42,649 nt of DNA, taken from a virus. The stretch lies in the IMG/VR virus record IMGVR_UViG_3300021197_001483, positions 1-42,649 of that record; one strand, given 5' to 3'. A model generated the notes under the pieces. The model was not told the DNA's origin and did no database searches. It saw only the letters and a program-made list of their open reading frames with translations. Below, in pieces: positions 5,982-42,501 of the stretch. A program made the translations under genes and the position numbers. How positions within the stretch are numbered: position 1 is the stretch's first letter; every line of letters starts with the position of its first letter.

Positions 5982-7205
5982 ATGCGTTTTTATGGTACTA
6001 ATGATTTACCCACGGATTTCGCTAAGAAGTCATTCGCAGCTAACCTAGCACGTATTATGCCTAATGGTGAAGCTCCATTATTTGCTATGAGTGGTTTAGC
6101 TCGTAAGAAAACAGCACTACAGATTGAGCATGGCTACTGGTCTAAGACTATGCAGTTCGCTTCAATCGTATTAGCAGCAGCAGTTGTTAGTGCAGGTGCT
6201 ACTAACTTTGAAGTAGTTGATACTACCTCTGTTAGTGTTAACGATGTAATACGTGCTCCTAGCGCTTTCTCAGGTGGTAACTTTGTTGCTCCTGAAAACG
6301 TTCGTATCACTGCAATTGTAGATGCTACTAACATTACTGTTGAGCGTGGATTTGGTGGTACTACTGCTAAAGCTTCAATCTCCAACGGTTCAGTACTACC
6401 TGCTATTGGTAATGCTTACCCAGAAGCATCAGCACGTCCTAACCACAAAGCTATCGTTCCAGTACGTCACTTGAACAATACTCAAATCTTCCGTAATGCT
6501 TGGTCACAATCTAAGACATTAATGGCAGTACAGCAAGTTGCTGGTATGGGTACTGTTGCTGAAAACAGATTAGATGCTTCTAACTTCCACGGTCGTGACA
6601 TTGAGTTAGCTACTTTCTTCTCTCGTAAGAGTAATACTAACGATGCTGTTACTGGTGAAGCACTACACACAATGGATGGTATTGAAGCTATCATTGAGAA
6701 TCAAGCTCCTGGTAACTTACGTGAAGCGGGTGCTACTACTACATACGATCAGTTAGTAACACTACTTGATCCTGTATTAGACCAAAAGACTGATTTCATG
6801 CAAGGCAACAAGCGTGTTATCTACTGTGGTAAAACAGCACTTAACGTATTCCATCAGATTGGTCGTTTATCAGGTCAGTATGAGATTGTTAATAAGCAAA
6901 CTAGTTTTGGTTTGAAGTTCACTGAGATTACTATCCCACGTGGTACTTTCCAATTAGTAGAGCATCCAATCTTTAACACTGATCCAGAGTGGCAGAAGAT
7001 GGCAGTAATAGCTGACTTGTCTAGCTTTGACTTCGCTTACTTAGAAGGTCGTGATACTGAAGTTACTTTCATTAACGAGCAAGCACAAGCTACTGACGGA
7101 CAAGATGCTAAAGGTGGTGTTCTTACTACTGAATTAACCATCGAGTTGCAAAACCCATTCGCATGGGGCGTTATCTACAACTTACGCGCAGGTGCAGCTG
7201 CTTAA
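5982..7205 (+). CDS. major capsid protein, SU10-like HK97 fold
   Basis: A 407-residue protein with the layout of the SU10-type (DUF5309-like) capsid family: an N-terminal 'APLFAMSGLARKKT' segment, a beta-rich region around residues 70-130 (E-loop or insertion), the family-like NNTQIFR segment followed by helical sequence through about residue 225, and a beta-rich C-terminus. It has a strong AGGAG site, follows the scaffold gene and is followed by a strong terminator, consistent with very high expression. It forms the icosahedral shell. The family name is recalled from pattern, not from a search. Confidence 0.85.
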   Translation: MRFYGTNDLPTDFAKKSFAANLARIMPNGEAPLFAMSGLARKKTALQIEHGYWSKTMQFASIVLAAAVVSAGATNFEVVDTTSVSVNDVIRAPSAFSGGNFVAPENVRITAIVDATNITVERGFGGTTAKASISNGSVLPAIGNAYPEASARPNHKAIVPVRHLNNTQIFRNAWSQSKTLMAVQQVAGMGTVAENRLDASNFHGRDIELATFFSRKSNTNDAVTGEALHTMDGIEAIIENQAPGNLREAGATTTYDQLVTLLDPVLDQKTDFMQGNKRVIYCGKTALNVFHQIGRLSGQYEIVNKQTSFGLKFTEITIPRGTFQLVEHPIFNTDPEWQKMAVIADLSSFDFAYLEGRDTEVTFINEQAQATDGQDAKGGVLTTELTIELQNPFAWGVIYNLRAGAAA

Positions 7206-26668: not shown

Positions 26669-28957
26669 TTAGTCTTTGATATTACCCCAAACGAAGTCAC
26701 AACCGCCACCATCGTTTGGTACTATTAGTTCCCTACCACGTACTGTAATAGGTCGTGCCATTAAATCACTTAGTGCTTTCTTAGTCTCAGGGTAGTGTAC
26801 TGGTTGAATCATGTATACTACCTCATCATGCACCTGCGCTTTTAGTCTTGCTACTCCACGTCCTATTTGGTACTCAAGCCAGAAGTCGAACTCTGCCTCA
26901 TCTACCATCATGACACTAAGAGATTGTGGTGAGTGAGCAACATACTTGTTAAGTATAGGTTTAGCTCCAGTACGACTAGGTATCTCGAAGCAATATCGTG
27001 TCCATCCTGTAGCACCTCTAAGCATACTGGTAATGCGTATCTCTTCACATACTTCATCGTAGTACTTTCCTTTCACCTTAGGGTAGGTGTCTTCAAATGT
27101 TTGTAGTAAGTGCTTACATGTATCAATGAGTCCGTAGTGCCTAGGTAAGTTAAGTAGAGCCTTAGCTTCTATTACATTCTTACTGCCCATAGTCTCAAGT
27201 AATACACTAGCTCCCATGTTATAGTTACTACCATGGTTAACTCTCTTACTGAGGGTACGTATTGCCTTACTGATTTCATCCTCTGGTATACCGAAGAACA
27301 AACTAGCATTACGACGGTGAAAGTCTGGTGCTGTCTCAACACTATCCATTAGAGTTTCATCTTCACTAATGTAAGCAGTGGTACGTGACTCAGCCTGACT
27401 ACCATCACAGTTAGCTATTAGCCAGTCAGCGTTACTACCAGTAGCAATACTGTCAGCAATATACATTGACCGTAAATCGTTATCTTGGTTCTGAATCTGC
27501 GTTCCCACCCATAGGTTGCTACTCTTTGACGCAGCGCGACCAGTATCAGTACCGCTATGATTAACTTCATACAACAATCTCCCATCCATAAGGGTTGCTT
27601 CTATGTACGTACTTAGCTTCTTAGTAGCACCACGTACTGTTAGTATTAATTCTTTTATGAGTGCGCACAGTGGGTCAATCTCAGCAAAGCGTTGTAGTGC
27701 TTTATCGTCACTCTTCTTAAACTTAGTGATACTCATTGAGTTCATTACGTCTAGCACTTGTGCTGGTGACTGAGGGTTGAAGTGCTTATACACAATAGCA
27801 TCTAGTCGTGCTTGTGCTATCTCACGTTCTTCACTGTACAACTTATGTAATCTTTGACGCTCAACTGGGTCTACTAAGAAGCCCTCTATACCACAAGTAA
27901 TAGCAGGGAAACACTTACGGAATACTATCAGGTAGTTATCCTTAGCCCACTGAGGTGCCATGTTCACCATGAATACCCATGACCACAAGGTAGTGTGAGT
28001 ATCTTTAGCATTGTACTCAGCCCTGTTAGATTCTATCTCATCTTTCCAGTACTGGTAGTCTTTCATAAACAAGCTAGTGATAAAGTCTAGTGAGCGTGGA
28101 AGCTCTGCATACCATGAGTGCATGAAGTGAAAGGTATCACATAGCCAGTTGTGTAGTGGAGCATTGTAACGTAGTAAATACGTAGCCTCATACCCACCAT
28201 TCTGGCATATCTTAGGAGCTTCTAAGTTGTTGAACTTACGCATCCAGTAGATATCTTCCATGCTGTTAAGATGTAGTACTATACTCTGACTATAGAGTTT
28301 ACCATCAGGTGAGCGTAGTAATGCACAGTACCCTATCATATCTATCTGAGGTACACATGGTACTAACTTCTTACTAGACTTAGTAGGTGGCATCAAGGCA
28401 TGTAAGCCTTTAGCTTTGTCACCATAGTATTCTAGTATTGTTGGATCTACTGGAGGTTTAATAGTTTCAATATCCACTGCTATGTACTCAGCCTTTTGGA
28501 ATAGCTCGTAGTAACTCTGGATATTTAAAGGAGTGCAAACATCCCATAACATTTCAGGTGCAGTAGGGAATGAAGGGTTGAGGTGTTTGTTGACATACCA
28601 ACGTAGTAAGAACTTACCATAGCTGGTAGTTACTAGATGGTTAAAAGGTCTACTGATTATGATACGTATACCATCGAAGTCAAAGATAGCACCTGCCCAC
28701 TGTAGTGATGGTGTTAGCTTCTTACCGTTACGGTATAGTGGTATAGTTTTACCAGTACAATGCTTCACTACTTTAGCAAGTAGGTTACAGTTACTAAGTA
28801 CAATAGTATCTACTCCGTGCTTCTTACAGCTACGAATGTACAAAGCTATTGTGTCATAGTGTACTTTAGGTATTAGAATGTTGTGACCATTGATAGCTGC
28901 TCGTGCTTGGCTGTAGAATCTACTATTATATTTATCAGCTACTAGCATTAATTTCAT
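26669..28957 (-). CDS. family A DNA polymerase with 3'-5' exonuclease
   Basis: A 762-residue replicative polymerase. Exonuclease motifs: D162 and E164 in VDIET, and YNAKD at 315-319. A TGRAAS element (472-477) precedes motif A, CDGSQAESR (517-525, catalytic D518; usual form DYSQIELR). Motif B is KRVNHGSNYNMGA (571-583) and motif C is QVHDEV (708-713, D711). Motif A is atypical (Gly for Tyr, Ala-Glu-Ser for Ile-Glu-Leu), but both catalytic Asp are kept. Length fits phage Pol I without the 5' nuclease domain. A GGGGG tract precedes the start. It copies the phage genome. Confidence 0.95.
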   Translation of the reverse strand: MKLMLVADKYNSRFYSQARAAINGHNILIPKVHYDTIALYIRSCKKHGVDTIVLSNCNLLAKVVKHCTGKTIPLYRNGKKLTPSLQWAGAIFDFDGIRIIISRPFNHLVTTSYGKFLLRWYVNKHLNPSFPTAPEMLWDVCTPLNIQSYYELFQKAEYIAVDIETIKPPVDPTILEYYGDKAKGLHALMPPTKSSKKLVPCVPQIDMIGYCALLRSPDGKLYSQSIVLHLNSMEDIYWMRKFNNLEAPKICQNGGYEATYLLRYNAPLHNWLCDTFHFMHSWYAELPRSLDFITSLFMKDYQYWKDEIESNRAEYNAKDTHTTLWSWVFMVNMAPQWAKDNYLIVFRKCFPAITCGIEGFLVDPVERQRLHKLYSEEREIAQARLDAIVYKHFNPQSPAQVLDVMNSMSITKFKKSDDKALQRFAEIDPLCALIKELILTVRGATKKLSTYIEATLMDGRLLYEVNHSGTDTGRAASKSSNLWVGTQIQNQDNDLRSMYIADSIATGSNADWLIANCDGSQAESRTTAYISEDETLMDSVETAPDFHRRNASLFFGIPEDEISKAIRTLSKRVNHGSNYNMGASVLLETMGSKNVIEAKALLNLPRHYGLIDTCKHLLQTFEDTYPKVKGKYYDEVCEEIRITSMLRGATGWTRYCFEIPSRTGAKPILNKYVAHSPQSLSVMMVDEAEFDFWLEYQIGRGVARLKAQVHDEVVYMIQPVHYPETKKALSDLMARPITVRGRELIVPNDGGGCDFVWGNIKD

Positions 28958-32180: not shown

Positions 32181-32777
32181 CTATACCTTCATCTTGAATA
32201 GGTCATCAAGGTCAGCACCACCTAAGTCATTAAGACTAGTAAGCTCTTTCTTCTTAGCTTTAGTTGCAGCTGCCTTAGTCTTAGGTGCGGTCTCAATACC
32301 AGCAGTAGTAAGATAGCCACCTACTATTATACCTAGTTGATCATCTGTTAGTAGATGTGTAAGCTCAGAGTACTGCTCTAAGTTCTTACGAATAGCACGA
32401 CAGAAGGTACGAATATCAGGAGTCTTCTCTACTGTTGCAGCATCTAAACTTTGTAGGTTGCTTAGTAGTAAGTCAGCATCTAGTCCATCTAACTCACGCA
32501 CTTCGTCCTTCAAGTTGTAAGCACCCTTAGCTTCTTGCTTCTCTAAGTGCTTGTCTAACTCAGACTTAGTTTCCTTAACACTTACTACTAGGTCATCAAG
32601 AGAAGTGAACTGTCCTTTCTTCTCACCTAGAGTAGAGGCACCTGCTGTACCAACTGTCTTAACAGTAGCAGTTGTAGCAGTTGCGGGAGCATCCTTGCTT
32701 TGTTCTTCTGTACTACTAGGAGTAGGAGCTTTGTGCTTGGCTTTCATAGCCGCTAACTTTTCTGCTAAGGAACTCAT
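32181..32777 (-). CDS. unknown helical protein
   Basis: A 198-residue protein: N-terminal basic helix (SSLAEKLAAMKAKHK), Thr/Ala-rich linker to about residue 50, helical body with a 'LLTDDQLGIIVGGYL' segment, and a Lys-rich then acidic end (DLGGADLDDLFKM). The N-terminal LAxxL pattern resembles short ends of the helicase and of the protein at 39509. Overlaps the preceding gene by ATGA and lies eleven bases before the Cas4-like gene. Function unknown. Confidence 0.65.
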   Translation of the reverse strand: MSSLAEKLAAMKAKHKAPTPSSTEEQSKDAPATATTATVKTVGTAGASTLGEKKGQFTSLDDLVVSVKETKSELDKHLEKQEAKGAYNLKDEVRELDGLDADLLLSNLQSLDAATVEKTPDIRTFCRAIRKNLEQYSELTHLLTDDQLGIIVGGYLTTAGIETAPKTKAAATKAKKKELTSLNDLGGADLDDLFKMKV

Positions 32778-33091
32778 ACCATACCACCTTCATTACTATT
32801 ATTACTTGCGTCACACTCAAACTCTTCCACCTCCAATGCGGTGTACTCGTTGTAGTGCAACTTGAATTTAACATCACTACCCTCTACTACACTACTCATG
32901 TAGGCATTAGGGTACTTGAGTCTGAAAGTTTCATCACGAAACTTCTCTTTCTGTAATGCTTTGCGGTAGGTCTTAGCAAACTTAGCTACTACTTTAGGAT
33001 CACTACTACCTACTACTCTCATTACTACTGAGCTTGTGGTCTTTAGTACATTCCACGGCTCTTCATATGTACGCTTACGTTGTGCTGTCAT
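32774..33091 (-). CDS. unknown small protein
   Basis: A 105-residue protein, basic at the front (TAQRKRTYEEPWNVLK), a helical 'VVAKFAKTYRKALQKEKFRD' segment and an acidic end. Overlaps both neighbours (17 bases at its start, ATGA at its end), which supports it as a real, coupled gene. No family recognised. Confidence 0.6.
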   Translation of the reverse strand: MTAQRKRTYEEPWNVLKTTSSVVMRVVGSSDPKVVAKFAKTYRKALQKEKFRDETFRLKYPNAYMSSVVEGSDVKFKLHYNEYTALEVEEFECDASNNSNEGGMV

Positions 33092-37099: not shown

Positions 37100-39064
37100 C
37101 TATTGAAATGCTGCTGTCTTAGTGATTGTTAGTGCTGGTTGTGATGCTCTCTTCTTAGCAAGTTCCAGCTTGAGTTTCTCTGCCCTGACCTTACTACGGT
37201 AGTAGTCTAACTTCTTGTCAAGGGTATTACCTTTAAGCTTCTGAGTAGTGATGCCTTTCTGTAGCATACTATCACCAGCTTTAACAGGGTTCTGCTTATC
37301 GTACATGATAGTAATGTCACGTCTTGCACGAGTAACACCAGTGTATACTAGCTCACGGTTAACCATAGTACTATGACTGTGGTGTAGTATTAGCCATACT
37401 CTTTGTGCTTCACTACCTTGAGCTTTGTGGACTGTCATTGCACCAACTAGTAGTAGGTTGCTGACTTGTCCTGCACTTCTAGCAGTAGCAGTACGGCTAG
37501 GGTCTTGACAGTTTACCATTCTGATAACGGCACTACTCTGAGTACTGTTACGAGTCTTACTTACCTCTACTGCTGCATCTAGTAGGTCATCAATATCAGC
37601 ATTCTCAAAGTTAAACTGCTGTGCTTCTATTACCTCTGCCTCATGCTCAGTACTAATGCGTCCCCATCTATCTACATGAGGCGATGGTGGTAGTGGTGGT
37701 GCACCAGTGTAGTCAGTGTTAGGTTCGATACTATCAATGAACCAGTACTCTTTGTTGTGTAAGACCTTATCTCCTACACAGAAATGGAAGTGGTGGTAGT
37801 TACTAATAACTTGATGTACTTCTAGACCATCACGCTCTGCCAGTCCTTGACCTATCCACTTGTTTAACTCTAGTGTACCGAATGCCTTGTTGAAAGGTAC
37901 TAGTACCATATCGTACTGTGGGTCAAATTCACCAGCTATTATTAGCTTCTTAAAGTAAGTACCTATTGCCATACAACTAGTCTCACTAGGGTGTCTCTTA
38001 GCAAAGGGCTTCATACTAACAGTACCACTATGGTCTGATTGGTTCCACGTCTCCGCTTCCTTATCTCCCATAGGCTTACCCTCTAGTATACGTTGTGCTA
38101 GCTTTGTTACTAGTCCAGTATTACGATACACTTCACCAAGCTCAATGATAGGTAGCTCTAGTAACTTGAACCCTAGTATTGCGTCATCGAATACTGGCGG
38201 TAGCTGGTTCAAATCTCCTAGGAATATAAAGGTAGTATCATCAGGTCTTGGCAAGGCACTATAGAATGTTTCCCATAACCACATAGGAACACTACCACCC
38301 TCTTCCACTACTACTATATCTAGGTGTGGTAGAAATGCCCCATCACCAAGACCATCAGGTTGGCAACCATAAGTAGGTACGAATCGTTGAGACTCTTTAT
38401 TAAAACCAGTCTCTTTACCATCATCACCTATCTCAGGTATTTCTACCTCACAAGGATAGTATTCTAGTAGTGTGTGAAAGGTACTACAGTTCTGCTTGAA
38501 CTCTTGAGGTAGTGCCTCTTTGATATTACGTACTGCTTGGTTAGTGAATGAAAGTACTGCTATTGCTGGCTTACCCTCTGAAAGCACACGCTCAGTACCT
38601 TCTGTTAACCTACTGATAACACCACTACTACTCAAGGTGGTAGCCATTGTACGTACAGTAGTAGTCTTACCAGTACCCGCACTACCAACTAGGCAGAATG
38701 AATGCTTACTTTCAGCCATTACTACTGCTTGGCGTTGTTCCGCATTCAGGTTATCGAAGTTAACTTCGTCTTTGTTTAGTGCTTTAGCTACACTGTTGGC
38801 AGTAGCAGTTGTTGTAGTATCGACGCCATTAGCCCCACTCCCACTGCTAGCCCCATTACTGCCATCAATAGTAGTAGTCTTACCAGTGCTACTGTCTTTC
38901 TTCTTCTGTAAGAAGGCTTGAAGGGTAGATACTTCTGCTTGTCCTGCTTCCTGCTTAACACTCTTTAACTCCACTGTTGGCTTTACTACTGCTTGTGCTT
39001 GTTGTGATGCTTGCTTCTGCTCTTTTAGTCGTTTAAGCATACGTGCTAGTGATGGGCTAGTCAT
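37100..39064 (-). CDS. SF1 DNA helicase (RecD/UvrD-like)
   Basis: A 654-residue helicase. The chosen ATG at 39064 has AAGGAG seven bases upstream; an in-frame ATG at 39103 lies well inside the previous gene. Motifs: Walker A GSAGTGKTT (127-135), Walker B VVVEEGG (251-257), motif III-like GDLNQLPPV (283-291), and near the end the UvrD C-terminal 'TVHKAQGSE' and 'YTGVTRARR' motifs. The first ~100 residues are a linker rich in Gln, Ser and Thr with an N-terminal SPSLARMLKRLK helix that recurs at the end of the protein at 39509. It may be the replicative or recombination helicase. Confidence 0.9.
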   Translation of the reverse strand: MTSPSLARMLKRLKEQKQASQQAQAVVKPTVELKSVKQEAGQAEVSTLQAFLQKKKDSSTGKTTTIDGSNGASSGSGANGVDTTTTATANSVAKALNKDEVNFDNLNAEQRQAVVMAESKHSFCLVGSAGTGKTTTVRTMATTLSSSGVISRLTEGTERVLSEGKPAIAVLSFTNQAVRNIKEALPQEFKQNCSTFHTLLEYYPCEVEIPEIGDDGKETGFNKESQRFVPTYGCQPDGLGDGAFLPHLDIVVVEEGGSVPMWLWETFYSALPRPDDTTFIFLGDLNQLPPVFDDAILGFKLLELPIIELGEVYRNTGLVTKLAQRILEGKPMGDKEAETWNQSDHSGTVSMKPFAKRHPSETSCMAIGTYFKKLIIAGEFDPQYDMVLVPFNKAFGTLELNKWIGQGLAERDGLEVHQVISNYHHFHFCVGDKVLHNKEYWFIDSIEPNTDYTGAPPLPPSPHVDRWGRISTEHEAEVIEAQQFNFENADIDDLLDAAVEVSKTRNSTQSSAVIRMVNCQDPSRTATARSAGQVSNLLLVGAMTVHKAQGSEAQRVWLILHHSHSTMVNRELVYTGVTRARRDITIMYDKQNPVKAGDSMLQKGITTQKLKGNTLDKKLDYYRSKVRAEKLKLELAKKRASQPALTITKTAAFQ

Positions 39065-39299
39065 CTTTCCACTCCTTATGAGTAAGAATCTTTTTAGTTT
39101 CAATGTTACGAAGCTTGCCTACTATTGCTAGTACTTCTTTCAGTGTTAGTTCTAGTTTAAGCCACTTGCCACTGTCTTGACCTAACATATGAATGTAGTA
39201 CCTACTAGGTCTTGACTTAGTGATACTGAATTGCATAGGACAGTAACGCTCTTGTACTTCTACTGTGGTGTGGGTAGTACCATACTTTAAATATTTCAT
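39057..39299 (-). CDS. unknown small protein, paralogue of the preceding gene
   Basis: An 80-residue protein starting MKYLKYGTTHTTVEVQER. The KYGTTHT segment and a later K/R-L-R element recur in the adjacent upstream gene, indicating tandem duplication and divergence. Overlaps the helicase start by eight bases and the upstream stop by TAATG. Beta-rich front, helical basic end. Function unknown. Confidence 0.65.
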   Translation of the reverse strand: MKYLKYGTTHTTVEVQERYCPMQFSITKSRPSRYYIHMLGQDSGKWLKLELTLKEVLAIVGKLRNIETKKILTHKEWKDD

Positions 39300-39496
39300 T
39301 ATGCTGTCCTCAATTTGCGTACTACTAGATGTGATGATGTTAGTATGTGTGGGAAAACATTCTTAGTCTGTAATACCCACCGCTTTCTCCAAGGTACTAG
39401 TACGTACACCTTGTCGCTATCTAAACTACATTCGTACGTACTACCAGTTGCCTTACTCGTTACCGTATGAGTAGTACCATATTTGTATCGTGTCAT
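39299..39496 (-). CDS. unknown small protein, paralogue of the following gene
   Basis: A 65-residue beta-rich protein (MTRYKYGTTHTVTSKATG at the start, YVLVPWRKRWVLQT at 31-44). It shares its first strand, KYGTTHT, with the next gene. GGAT site twelve bases upstream. Function unknown; too short for family assignment. Confidence 0.65.
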   Translation of the reverse strand: MTRYKYGTTHTVTSKATGSTYECSLDSDKVYVLVPWRKRWVLQTKNVFPHILTSSHLVVRKLRTA

Positions 39497-39508
39497 TGCT
39501 ACTAATCC

Positions 39509-40567
39509 TTATGCCTTTGCTGGAGTTTTGAATTTGTTTAACATACGAGCTAGAGGTGAATCACCAGTAGGCTTGTTGTTACTCACTTTTACTACTACAT
39601 TGTTATGGAAGCTCATATCAGATACCTTAGTCTTAGTAGTGTACTTAACATTCGCGCCTTTGTTATGCTGCTCTTCTTCTTTAACAGTAATGAAGTCTAG
39701 GCTTGCTACTATGTTATGAATAGTCTCTAGTTTAGCTTCAAGATGACGTATTACTAGTAGTGACTGCTCTCTGTTGTCATCCTCATAAGGTAGGGATGCC
39801 TTAGCTATCTTGATAACCTTTTGTAGTGTACCTACATTCAAGCGGTCTAGGTTAGTACTGTTAAGATAGTGTCTAATAGTATCAGCTTGCGTACCAGTAA
39901 GATCTTCGTTCTTAATGTGCATTTGCTTGATAGCCCATTGACCTAGTTTAGGTGTGTACTTACTACCTTTAAGGTGATACGTGTTAAGAATACGGTTAAG
40001 CTCTACTTCTAGTGCTAGTTCGTCCTCTAACTTCTCGCGCTTCTTCTCTTGCGCTGTTAGTGGGTTGTCTCCGTAGTACAAGTGCAACTGCTTGCTAACT
40101 TCTTTCAAGTACAATGCAATGCGACTACCACTAGTATTGTTATCTCTACTGATAATAAGTGTTGGTAAGTCTAACTTGTGGTGATTCTCAGTACGGATGT
40201 ACTTACTAAGTGGCTTGATTACTCTTACTAGTGCCTTGAATATCTTGTTAACTTCTTTCTCTGACTCAAGATACAGACCACAGCGTTTAGTACTGATTAA
40301 GCCAGTGTTAACAAGTAGTGCTGTTACTGCTAAGTATTTCTCCGTTGGAGTGCGTGATTCTGATAGTAGTGTTATCAACTCTAGTGGTGATAGCCCGAAT
40401 ACAGGATGACTGTTACGAACTAATTTGTTCTTAATACTAGAGTTGTGAAAATGTGTACCTACTGCAATTTTAATATTAGTATGGTGACAGAATGAGATAG
40501 TAGCGCTAATTTCTTTTAGTGTCTTTAGTGTCTCAGTGTCGTGCTGTGTAGGTTGTGAGTAAAACAT
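39509..40567 (-). CDS. unknown protein near the putative origin
   Basis: A 352-residue, helical, basic protein. N-terminal ~100 residues are hydrophobic and helical (LSPLELITLLSES, TEKYLAVTALLVNTG), the middle (about 170-260) charged and helical, and the end reads SPLARMLNKFK, nearly the same as the helicase's N-terminal helix. It is the first large gene after the iteron region, a place suited to an initiator or helicase loader, but no domain proves that. AGGA ribosome site. Confidence 0.6.
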   Translation of the reverse strand: MFYSQPTQHDTETLKTLKEISATISFCHHTNIKIAVGTHFHNSSIKNKLVRNSHPVFGLSPLELITLLSESRTPTEKYLAVTALLVNTGLISTKRCGLYLESEKEVNKIFKALVRVIKPLSKYIRTENHHKLDLPTLIISRDNNTSGSRIALYLKEVSKQLHLYYGDNPLTAQEKKREKLEDELALEVELNRILNTYHLKGSKYTPKLGQWAIKQMHIKNEDLTGTQADTIRHYLNSTNLDRLNVGTLQKVIKIAKASLPYEDDNREQSLLVIRHLEAKLETIHNIVASLDFITVKEEEQHNKGANVKYTTKTKVSDMSFHNNVVVKVSNNKPTGDSPLARMLNKFKTPAKA

Positions 40568-41041: not shown

Positions 41042-41107
41042 AGTAGTAACTCCTTACTAGTTAATAGTAGTGCTAAGGGGTGAATCCCTAACACCAAAGT
41101 AGTGCCT

Positions 41108-41136
41108 ATCATATCATACTTTTAACAGAATGTCAA
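41108..41136 (-). promoter_or_regulatory. strong sigma70 promoter of the replication operon
   Basis: On the minus strand TTGACA (41136-41131) and TATGAT (41113-41108) are separated by exactly 17 bases, eleven of twelve consensus bases. Transcription would begin about 41100 and give a ~55-base leader with a GGTG/CACC hairpin before the first gene. A host RNA polymerase could drive the early arm from here without phage factors. Confidence 0.85.
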
Positions 41137-41218
41137 GTACTCATTCAGTGGTAGCTTGTGTAGAAGGAGTAGTAGTAGGAGTTGTGAGTAAGGTAGTACT
41201 ACAAATCTTATGCACTCC

Positions 41219-41280
41219 AAATACCAAGTACCAAATACTTAAATACCTAGATACCTAGAAACTTGAAAACCTGAAAACCT
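41219..41280. repeat. iteron array 1 (8-bp tandem repeats)
   Basis: Six contiguous 8-mers from 41233: AAATACTT, AAATACCT, AGATACCT, AGAAACTT, GAAAACCT and GAAAACCT, with two weaker units before them (from 41219). Consensus ARAWACCT. The inverse sequence occurs as array 2, about 330 bases away. Suggested binding sites for an initiator. Confidence 0.75.
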
Positions 41281-41579
41281 AGGGGGTAGGTATTGGGTGT
41301 GTGGGGTGTGGTTGTCGTTGTAGTAGGTATTAAGGTGTTGTGTTGTTGTAGTGTTGCTTGTGTAGTAGGTAGTACTTACTTGCCTTGTGAGAAAGGTGTA
41401 AGTGTCTATGATTATTATGACGTTAATATAAGGGGTATTGAAATTTTTAATAAATAATAATACTACTACTATACTATCTACTACAGCTACTACACTACTA
41501 TTACTAGCTACTAGCTTTGCTACTACACTAGGTACTAGTATTAGGTGTTGTAGTGGTAGGTACTACTATTGGAGGTAAA

Positions 41580-41684
41580 ATGGATATTGGGTATGAATAT
41601 CCCCTCAAGGTTTCTAGGTTCTCAGGTTCTCAGGTATTCAGGTATTTGTGGTATCTAGGTATCTGGGGTGCACTGTGCTGCTAG
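41580..41684 (+). CDS. possible 34-residue peptide across iteron array 2
   Basis: An ATG with an ideal GGAGG four bases upstream opens 34 codons to TAG at 41682-41684. The product would start MDIGYEYPLKV and end in an aromatic hydrophobic stretch and two Cys. It runs rightward, against the neighbouring transcription, and covers the iterons, so coding may be chance. Confidence 0.25.
   Translation: MDIGYEYPLKVSRFSGSQVFRYLWYLGIWGALCC
41608..41664. repeat. iteron array 2 (inverted relative to array 1)
   Basis: Five contiguous 8-mers AGGTTTCT, AGGTTCTC, AGGTTCTC, AGGTATTC, AGGTATTT, then two further units GGTATCT and AGGTATCT. The consensus AGGTWTYT is the reverse complement of array 1. Together they bracket the AT-rich core. 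Confidence 0.75.
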
Positions 41685-41766
41685 TACTAGTAGTTAGTAA
41701 TACCAATGTAGTGTTAGTAGTATTGATGCTTGTAGTGTGGCTGTGATTGGCTTTATTTCAGGCAAT

Positions 41767-41790
41767 AAAAAACCCACTACAATGAGTGGG
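41767..41790 (-). terminator. Rho-independent terminator
   Basis: On the minus strand CCCACT and AGTGGG form a perfect 6-bp stem with a six-base loop, followed by TTTTTT. It lies 25 bases after the stop of the gene at 41815 and isolates that gene from the origin region. Confidence 0.93.
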
Positions 41791-41814
41791 CTTCTGTTAA
41801 GTACTAAGTACTAG

Positions 41815-42501
41815 TTATGCGAACATATCTAAGTCAAAGTCCTCTGACGGTTTAAGAACTTTCTCTAAGTTAGTCGCCCATAGGTTAACTACTGGCTCAC
41901 AAGTTGCGGCTACATCAGCATCCTGCTCTGCTAGTGCTGCATACCAAGTAGCGATAGCGCCTTGCAACTTCTCAAGTACTGCGTTGCTAACTGGCTGACA
42001 TGAAGCAAGAGAAAAGCGCTTCTCGCCTAGTTGTGCTACTGCTGCTGCTACCTTGTCGTTGAACAACTCAGGCATAGTAGCTTTAACAACTTCTACAACT
42101 GCTTTGACCATTTCGGCAGTAACTTTAATCGCTGCTGTGCGTTGTGCGAATGGTGCTTCTAATACAGCATCCCAAGATACTAGAGTCTCAGCCGTTGGTG
42201 TGCCATTGCCTATCACGTCATCTTGAGCAGTCTTGATAGCTTTGTTAACCAACTGCTGTAAGTGGTCGTTCTGTGCTGCTGTAAATCCTTCAACGGCTAC
42301 AACTGGTACAGCCATGTTAACAGTTACAGACTTACGCTTGTACTTGTCTGCTTTGCCTTCTTCTGTGATTACTTCTACTTGATCTGCTGCTAGAGATTCT
42401 TTCTCTACTAGAGCTGATAAGCGCTCATAACCTTTTTCCTCTGCTGTGTATGATTTAAAGTGGAATGTAAAATCGATTGCTTTAGTATTAATATCAGACA
42501 T
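41815..42501 (-). CDS. unknown early protein with acidic C-terminus
   Basis: A 228-residue protein. A TTG further upstream is in frame, but it is part of the GGAG site (TTGGAGACTACA) of the ATG at 42501, which is preferred. The protein is Ala/Val/Glu rich, with beta-prone residues about 1-75, a helical centre and the C-terminal tail SEDFDLDMFA, acidic with aromatic residues as in ssDNA-binding proteins that recruit partners. It has its own strong promoter and terminator, so high early expression is expected. An SSB or host-takeover role is speculation. Confidence 0.7.
   Translation of the reverse strand: MSDINTKAIDFTFHFKSYTAEEKGYERLSALVEKESLAADQVEVITEEGKADKYKRKSVTVNMAVPVVAVEGFTAAQNDHLQQLVNKAIKTAQDDVIGNGTPTAETLVSWDAVLEAPFAQRTAAIKVTAEMVKAVVEVVKATMPELFNDKVAAAVAQLGEKRFSLASCQPVSNAVLEKLQGAIATWYAALAEQDADVAATCEPVVNLWATNLEKVLKPSEDFDLDMFA

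Follow-up and report, generated by a model that had tools for sequence, protein, structure and literature searches.

Origins of replication in which tandem repeats lie beside an A+T-rich unwinding element, near the replication genes, are found in theta plasmids with iterons and in phage lambda. Classic iteron arrays have units of around 18-22 bp and flank the A+T region on a single side, and DnaA boxes are present in many, although not all, iteron origins. In herpes simplex virus oriS, inverted initiator boxes are arranged around an A+T-rich spacer, while ori/crr of satellite phage P4 has short iterons in two blocks which are required together. The lambda ori lies within gene O (PMC6022878). 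In archaeal Orc1/Cdc6-ORB origins, an A+T-rich unwinding region lies between inverted repeats and the repeat sequence diverges from origin to origin. In addition, oriC1 of Haloarcula hispanica has a G-rich inverted repeat directly inside each ORB (PMC4010727). No published origin for PaP2, PaMx41, Tiera or EBPR podovirus 3 was found in the literature searched, and the replication start site appears to be undescribed for this phage group. The tract described here is, on sequence evidence, probably the main DNA replication origin of a phage of this kind, with a probability of about three in four.

The window, which is the whole stretch of DNA analysed, is the complete 42,649-bp IMG/VR virus record IMGVR_UViG_3300021197_001483, in which end repeats were absent. 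The late genes are oriented rightward (491-24440) and the early and replication genes leftward (42501-24498). The leftward half encodes a family A DNA polymerase (26669-28957), a Sak4-like AAA protein, a DUF3987 protein and two nucleases, together with a Dda-like helicase of the RecD/UvrD superfamily 1 (37100-39103, minus strand) situated downstream of the tract in the leftward run of early genes. The entire structure is housed in a gene-free tract of 773 bp (41042-41814), and 0% of the array region was under ORFs of 75 aa or more. The phage records yielded no close DNA relative of this tract. An intrinsic terminator on the minus strand (41767-41790; minus strand CCCACTCATTGTAGTGGG TTTTTT), with a stem and a minus-strand T run, ends the 41815-42501 gene ahead of the tract. 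At the other side, a sigma-70-type promoter on the minus strand (41108-41136; TTGACA-17-TATGAT with TG ahead of the -10) agreed with 11 of 12 consensus positions and is predicted to face the early operon with the replication genes, with array 1 behind it. No Rfam match for an RNA element was found in the tract, and its folded-strand z-score only re-expressed the inverted repeats.

Array 1 (41221-41281) showed eight degenerate units with AWACCT-like cores, starting at 41221, 41228, 41235, 41243, 41251, 41259, 41267 and 41275 (spacings 7, 7, 8, 8, 8, 8 and 8). Array 2 (41608-41662) showed seven degenerate units with AGGTWT-like cores, starting at 41608, 41616, 41624, 41632, 41640, 41649 and 41657 (one spacing of 9). 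Both have a period of 8, array 2 is the reverse complement of array 1, and the spacer separating them is approximately 327 bp. The inner edge of array 1 was CCTAGGGGG, with a G run (GGGGG) at 41282-41286, and CCCC was located at the inner edge of array 2 (41601-41604). Exact words were scarce: array 1 contains two copies of ARAWACCT and array 2 three of AGGTWTYT. The six to eight and seven copies counted in the sequence-only reading hold if degenerate units are allowed and fail as literal words. AWACCT had 70 matches genome-wide against 54 ± 7 expected and neither word was strongly over-represented; the array signal is clustering, period and inversion, not word abundance.

No other stretches of the 42,649-bp genome fitted a period of 8 as well as the two arrays (33/40 and 29/40 matches). 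An unbiased, ungapped inverted-pair scan with a spacing of 150-700 bp, which replaced a k-mer scan (one mismatch) in which CTA/TAG words dominated this genome, ranked 41241-41286 / 41602-41647 first with a score of 24, followed by an independent match at 17. In the Markov control (one first-order sequence per record, 523 kb), one pair scored at least 17 and none at least 19. In a gapped test the real 773-bp tract scored 36, whereas 60 Markov versions averaged 17.3 and reached at most 27. The arrays could be a product of chance, namely low-complexity CTA/TAG-rich intergenic DNA mimicking periodicity, as TAGTAG/CTACTA words are plentiful in the tract and yield the second-best inverted pair; however, the Markov controls were exceeded and the recurrence of the arrays in 20 relatives with unrelated repeat words already contradicts this explanation, which is considered extremely improbable.

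A candidate DNA-unwinding element at 41423-41482 is the 60-bp stretch of lowest stability in the whole genome (nearest-neighbour sum -60.2, rank 1 genome-wide), at fraction 0.52 of the spacer. Inside it, near the midpoint of the arrays, lies the A+T core TTTTTAATAAATAATAATA (41443-41461). With this core present and the pair ranking first genome-wide, the initial description of two mutually reverse-complementary arrays bracketing an AT-rich core was borne out. No DnaA box (TTWTNCACA) was found in this tract, which leaves the suggested binding by DnaA unsupported. Two DnaA boxes were seen in the array tract of the relative G008 (L062), at 6284 and 6305, and none in the tracts of the relatives G001 and Tiera. 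The cumulative GC skew, proposed earlier as a check, reached its minimum no more than 1.9 kb from the core. This result is confounded by gene orientation, however; the minimum was also within 1.9 kb of the core in G001 and was absent in G008, and the skew of the 41815-42501 gene was as transcription predicts.

Compared to the described systems, the tract has tandem direct repeats of one short word with an adjacent A+T-rich unwinding element, as in iteron origins. It differs from theta plasmids and lambda in having two inverted short-unit arrays, in non-coding DNA and without a DnaA box, and its arrays lie in a gene-free tract whereas lambda-type iterons lie within the initiator gene; thus parts are in common with iteron plasmids and lambda but the symmetric layout is not. 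The oriS of herpes simplex virus has few boxes rather than tandem arrays and belongs to another virus realm with another initiator. The blocks of P4 are kilobases apart and use a primase-helicase initiator, whereas no such protein was assigned to the phage arrays. The best-documented match in layout is the archaeal origin, where inverted repeats likewise surround an A+T-rich element with a G-rich element inside each block; the G-rich repeats inside the ORBs of H. hispanica oriC1 correspond to the G/C runs inside the phage arrays. In contrast to archaeal origins, the phage repeats are tandem units of 8-10 bp and the host is bacterial. Since no Pfam match to Orc1/Cdc6 was found among about 20 window proteins scanned, the likeness is not taken as common descent, and the resemblance is one of layout only.

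Relatives were gathered by helicase or polymerase similarity only, so that the arrays played no part in the choice, and the 26 records that extended far enough upstream of the helicase were counted; contigs ending before the tract were left out. The nearest relative found was the uncultured virus G001 (43,592 bp; polymerase identity of 49%). More distant relatives included Aeromonas phage P5 (L032), Polaromonas phage Tiera (L061), EBPR podovirus 3 and the Pseudomonas phages PaP2/119X/PaMx41 (Jamesmcgillvirus, Fredfastierviridae). In G001, a syntenic non-coding tract of 765 bp takes the place of the 773-bp tract. It is flanked on one side by the gene for a homologue with 33% identity to the 41815-42501 protein, and on the other by the early operon with homologues of the 39509-40567 product and the helicase. 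DNA similarity to the arrays of this genome was absent; in their place were copies of GGAACG on the left (39037-39101), copies of CGTTCC on the right (39467-39502) and, between them, an A+T core (39256-39290). This array pair was the sole inverted pair scoring at least 16 in the whole of G001, and the distance from core to array was approximately 160 bp on each side in both genomes.

Overall, an inverted pair scoring at least 17 was found in the early non-coding region of 20 of the 26 relatives, this genome being counted among the 20 (the others were G001, Tiera, G008, L051, L052, L067, L069, L071, L072, L074, L075, L076, L077, L078, L079, L081, L084, L089 and L097). The earlier statement that such paired iterons are rare in phages of this type was therefore wrong. 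The common layout consisted of inverted arrays, most commonly of period 8, 159-427 bp apart, with an A+T-rich centre and G/C runs inside. The array pair was usually the sole inverted pair of such strength in its record, and only one other pair of at least 17 occurred outside these tracts in the same 523 kb (this genome, 26913-27355). Sixteen of the 20 array spans were without an ORF of at least 75 aa, and those of L051, L052, L081 and L089 partly overlapped one. The repeat word varied by lineage: TGACTAAT in L069, TGTAACCA in L071 and L077, TGGCATTG in L067, TTGTGCTA in L075 and GACTGTAG in L081, while the units of L078 were about 10 bp (e.g. TATAGTGGTT). In Tiera, a tandem duplication of approximately 70 bp in the right arm (about 43927-44070) doubles the word ATAACGAACA.

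Period, A+T position and G/C runs were not used when finding the pairs. Among lags 3-16, lag 8 showed the highest mean z over the 20 records (2.46), with 1.42 for lag 16 and 1.25 for lag 10. The A+T maximum of the spacer fell in its central 30% in 16 of the 20 records (binomial p 5.6e-6). Runs of five or more G or C, counted within 60 bp inside the arrays with the arms excluded, had a density of 7.5 per kb, whereas the remaining non-coding DNA of these records had 1.02 per kb (p 1.7e-10); these p-values treat related records as more independent than they truly are, although the array sequences are mostly unalike. The runs were often of C on the left and of G on the right across the 20 records. 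The melting minimum between the arrays was of rank 1 in this genome and in G008, 2 in G001, 3 in Tiera and 4 in PaP2; in the two complete genomes where the minimum was clearest, it was ahead of the runner-up by a wide margin.

The inverted-pair scan gave no significant pair in P5, L066, L070, L083 and L090. The polymerase of P5 is among the closest, yet paired arrays were undetected by the scan. P5 showed a single outstanding melting minimum at 32931-32990 in the early non-coding region and a long-armed hairpin near that minimum, at about 32276-32400. PaP2 was the sixth record without a scan match and its arrays were recognised by motif, with five CRAGGT units (43649-43690) and four ACCTYG units (146-221) spanning the record ends and an A+T minimum between them. 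Since the tract is contiguous in FBPa48 and 20Aug470, joining the ends of the PaP2 record is justified. Among the Jamesmcgillvirus isolates compared (FBPa48, 20Aug470, Neko, PaMx32, TF17 and 119X; repeat word CRAGGT), array 1 varied by point mutations and by a 23-bp insertion bearing one extra CGAGGT unit. Hardly any variation was seen in array 2, the A+T core or the G run, although all are non-coding.

Arrays whose word changes, together with a melting minimum midway, are the reason why the tract is read as a symmetric origin. The comparative anatomy (20 of 26 relatives and the melting minimum) thus strongly favours the origin first proposed in the sequence-only reading, while the rarity and the role of DnaA were unsupported and the initiator named with it stays a candidate. 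Preservation of the layout while the word changes points to an origin that would be read by a fast-evolving, co-evolving initiator. The arrays may instead be operators or enhancers for a phage transcription factor at the early promoter, with array 2 acting via a DNA loop. The strong promoter stands 85 bp from array 1, TTGACT-17-TAGGAT stands 34 bp from array 1 of G001, a TTGACA...TATAAT promoter lies directly after array 2 in Tiera, and MetJ-like regulators typically use tandem 8-bp boxes. However, no rightward gene is present beside array 2 here or in G001, so that symmetric, outward-facing arrays would not be needed for divergent promoters, and the central position of the melting minimum of the genome is left unexplained; regulation is therefore regarded as an unlikely function of the pair.

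The obvious candidate for an initiator by position and conservation, although unproven, is the 352-aa protein P0002 (39509-40567, minus strand), a putative initiator or loader with an unrecognised fold. Its family has 22 members, is encoded near the helicase in P0001-type relatives and has a conserved N-terminal motif, C..[ST]G...HP[IVL][FY]. No match was found in Pfam, PHROG or PDB, which gave no grounds for reading the product as a known initiator, and the AlphaFold model (pLDDT 70, moderate confidence) gave no convincing structural match or known DNA-binding fold. Array similarity barely followed the similarity of this product (rho of 0.18, Mantel p 0.069); with the DNA-binding fold unmatched, binding of the arrays is a putative role of this product, whose family is conserved beside the helicase. 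The C-terminus of the 352-aa protein (SPLARMLNKFK) and the N-terminus of the helicase (SPSLARMLKRLKE) have a short motif in common, which could serve in binding a shared partner.

Array similarity compared with small-terminase similarity gave a rho of 0.20 (p 0.057), as weak as for P0002, and the large terminase showed no tracking (p 0.22); co-variation of array sequence with the neighbouring proteins thus gave no clear winner. The small-terminase value would also fit a packaging start (pac or cos region) bound by that protein, as would the proximity of the small-terminase gene, which is a few kb at most from the tract in every complete record, and the start of several PaP2-like records within the tract. 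Against packaging, the record starts of PaP2 relatives vary, FBPa48 and 20Aug470 carry the tract uninterrupted, the large terminase did not track the arrays, and pac or cos sites are not characterised by a melting minimum at the centre of an inverted array pair, which makes this function very unlikely.

On the far side of the tract, a 228-aa protein (41815-42501, minus strand) ends in DFDLDMFA, and its G001 homologue, in the same position, ends in DDDIDVDLFETE (L047 3647-4402, minus strand); both are acidic tails with phenylalanine resembling those of single-strand DNA-binding proteins. No family match was found for the protein or its homologue. A single-strand binding protein was suggested by the acidic tail alone and was not adopted, as the model and the search were uninformative.

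The PaP2-like phage Shea, a near relative of PaP2, was reported to persist as a non-integrated episome (PMC13348215). Such persistence requires its own replication and counts for the origin reading. It would equally suit a partition (centromere-like) site of an episomal, pseudolysogenic state, and tandem short repeats are frequent in centromeres. Nevertheless, those window proteins that were compared with Pfam or PHROGs gave no ParA/ParB match, and centromeres do not need a central unwinding element; a partition site is accordingly rated highly improbable.

For the favoured reading as an origin, we infer protein binding, unwinding and the firing of forks in both directions from the tract. A phage-coded initiator would bind both arrays cooperatively, with one protomer or dimer per 8-bp unit, and the opposed arrays would place two initiator assemblies facing each other across 41423-41482. 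These assemblies may open this element and then load helicase on both strands, after which two diverging forks would depart, one moving leftward with the early genes and the other rightward with the late genes. Melting might be limited, or initiator binding aided, by the G/C runs that lie inside the arrays. At the early promoter (41136-41108), the same complex could couple early transcription to replication.

Phage origins are seldom known beyond a few model phages. We tentatively suggest, as a proposal with somewhat less than an even chance, that the Fredfastierviridae-like short-tailed clade and its uncultured relatives may have a symmetric origin resembling archaeal oriC, in which inverted tandem arrays with G/C runs on their inner sides surround a central unwinding element, with a repeat word of fast turnover, perhaps avoiding cross-control or parasitism by related replicons, and an initiator of an undescribed family. 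A simple scan finds the layout in 20 of 26 relatives, which makes a clade-wide origin directly testable, and this clade-wide design raises the interest of the tract above what observation of a single genome could show. The layout prompts a search for an unrecognised initiator family, and the lineage-specific words would constitute a natural series of origin and initiator pairs for studying how specificity changes. Finally, the layout is relevant to the episomal persistence of PaP2-like phages.
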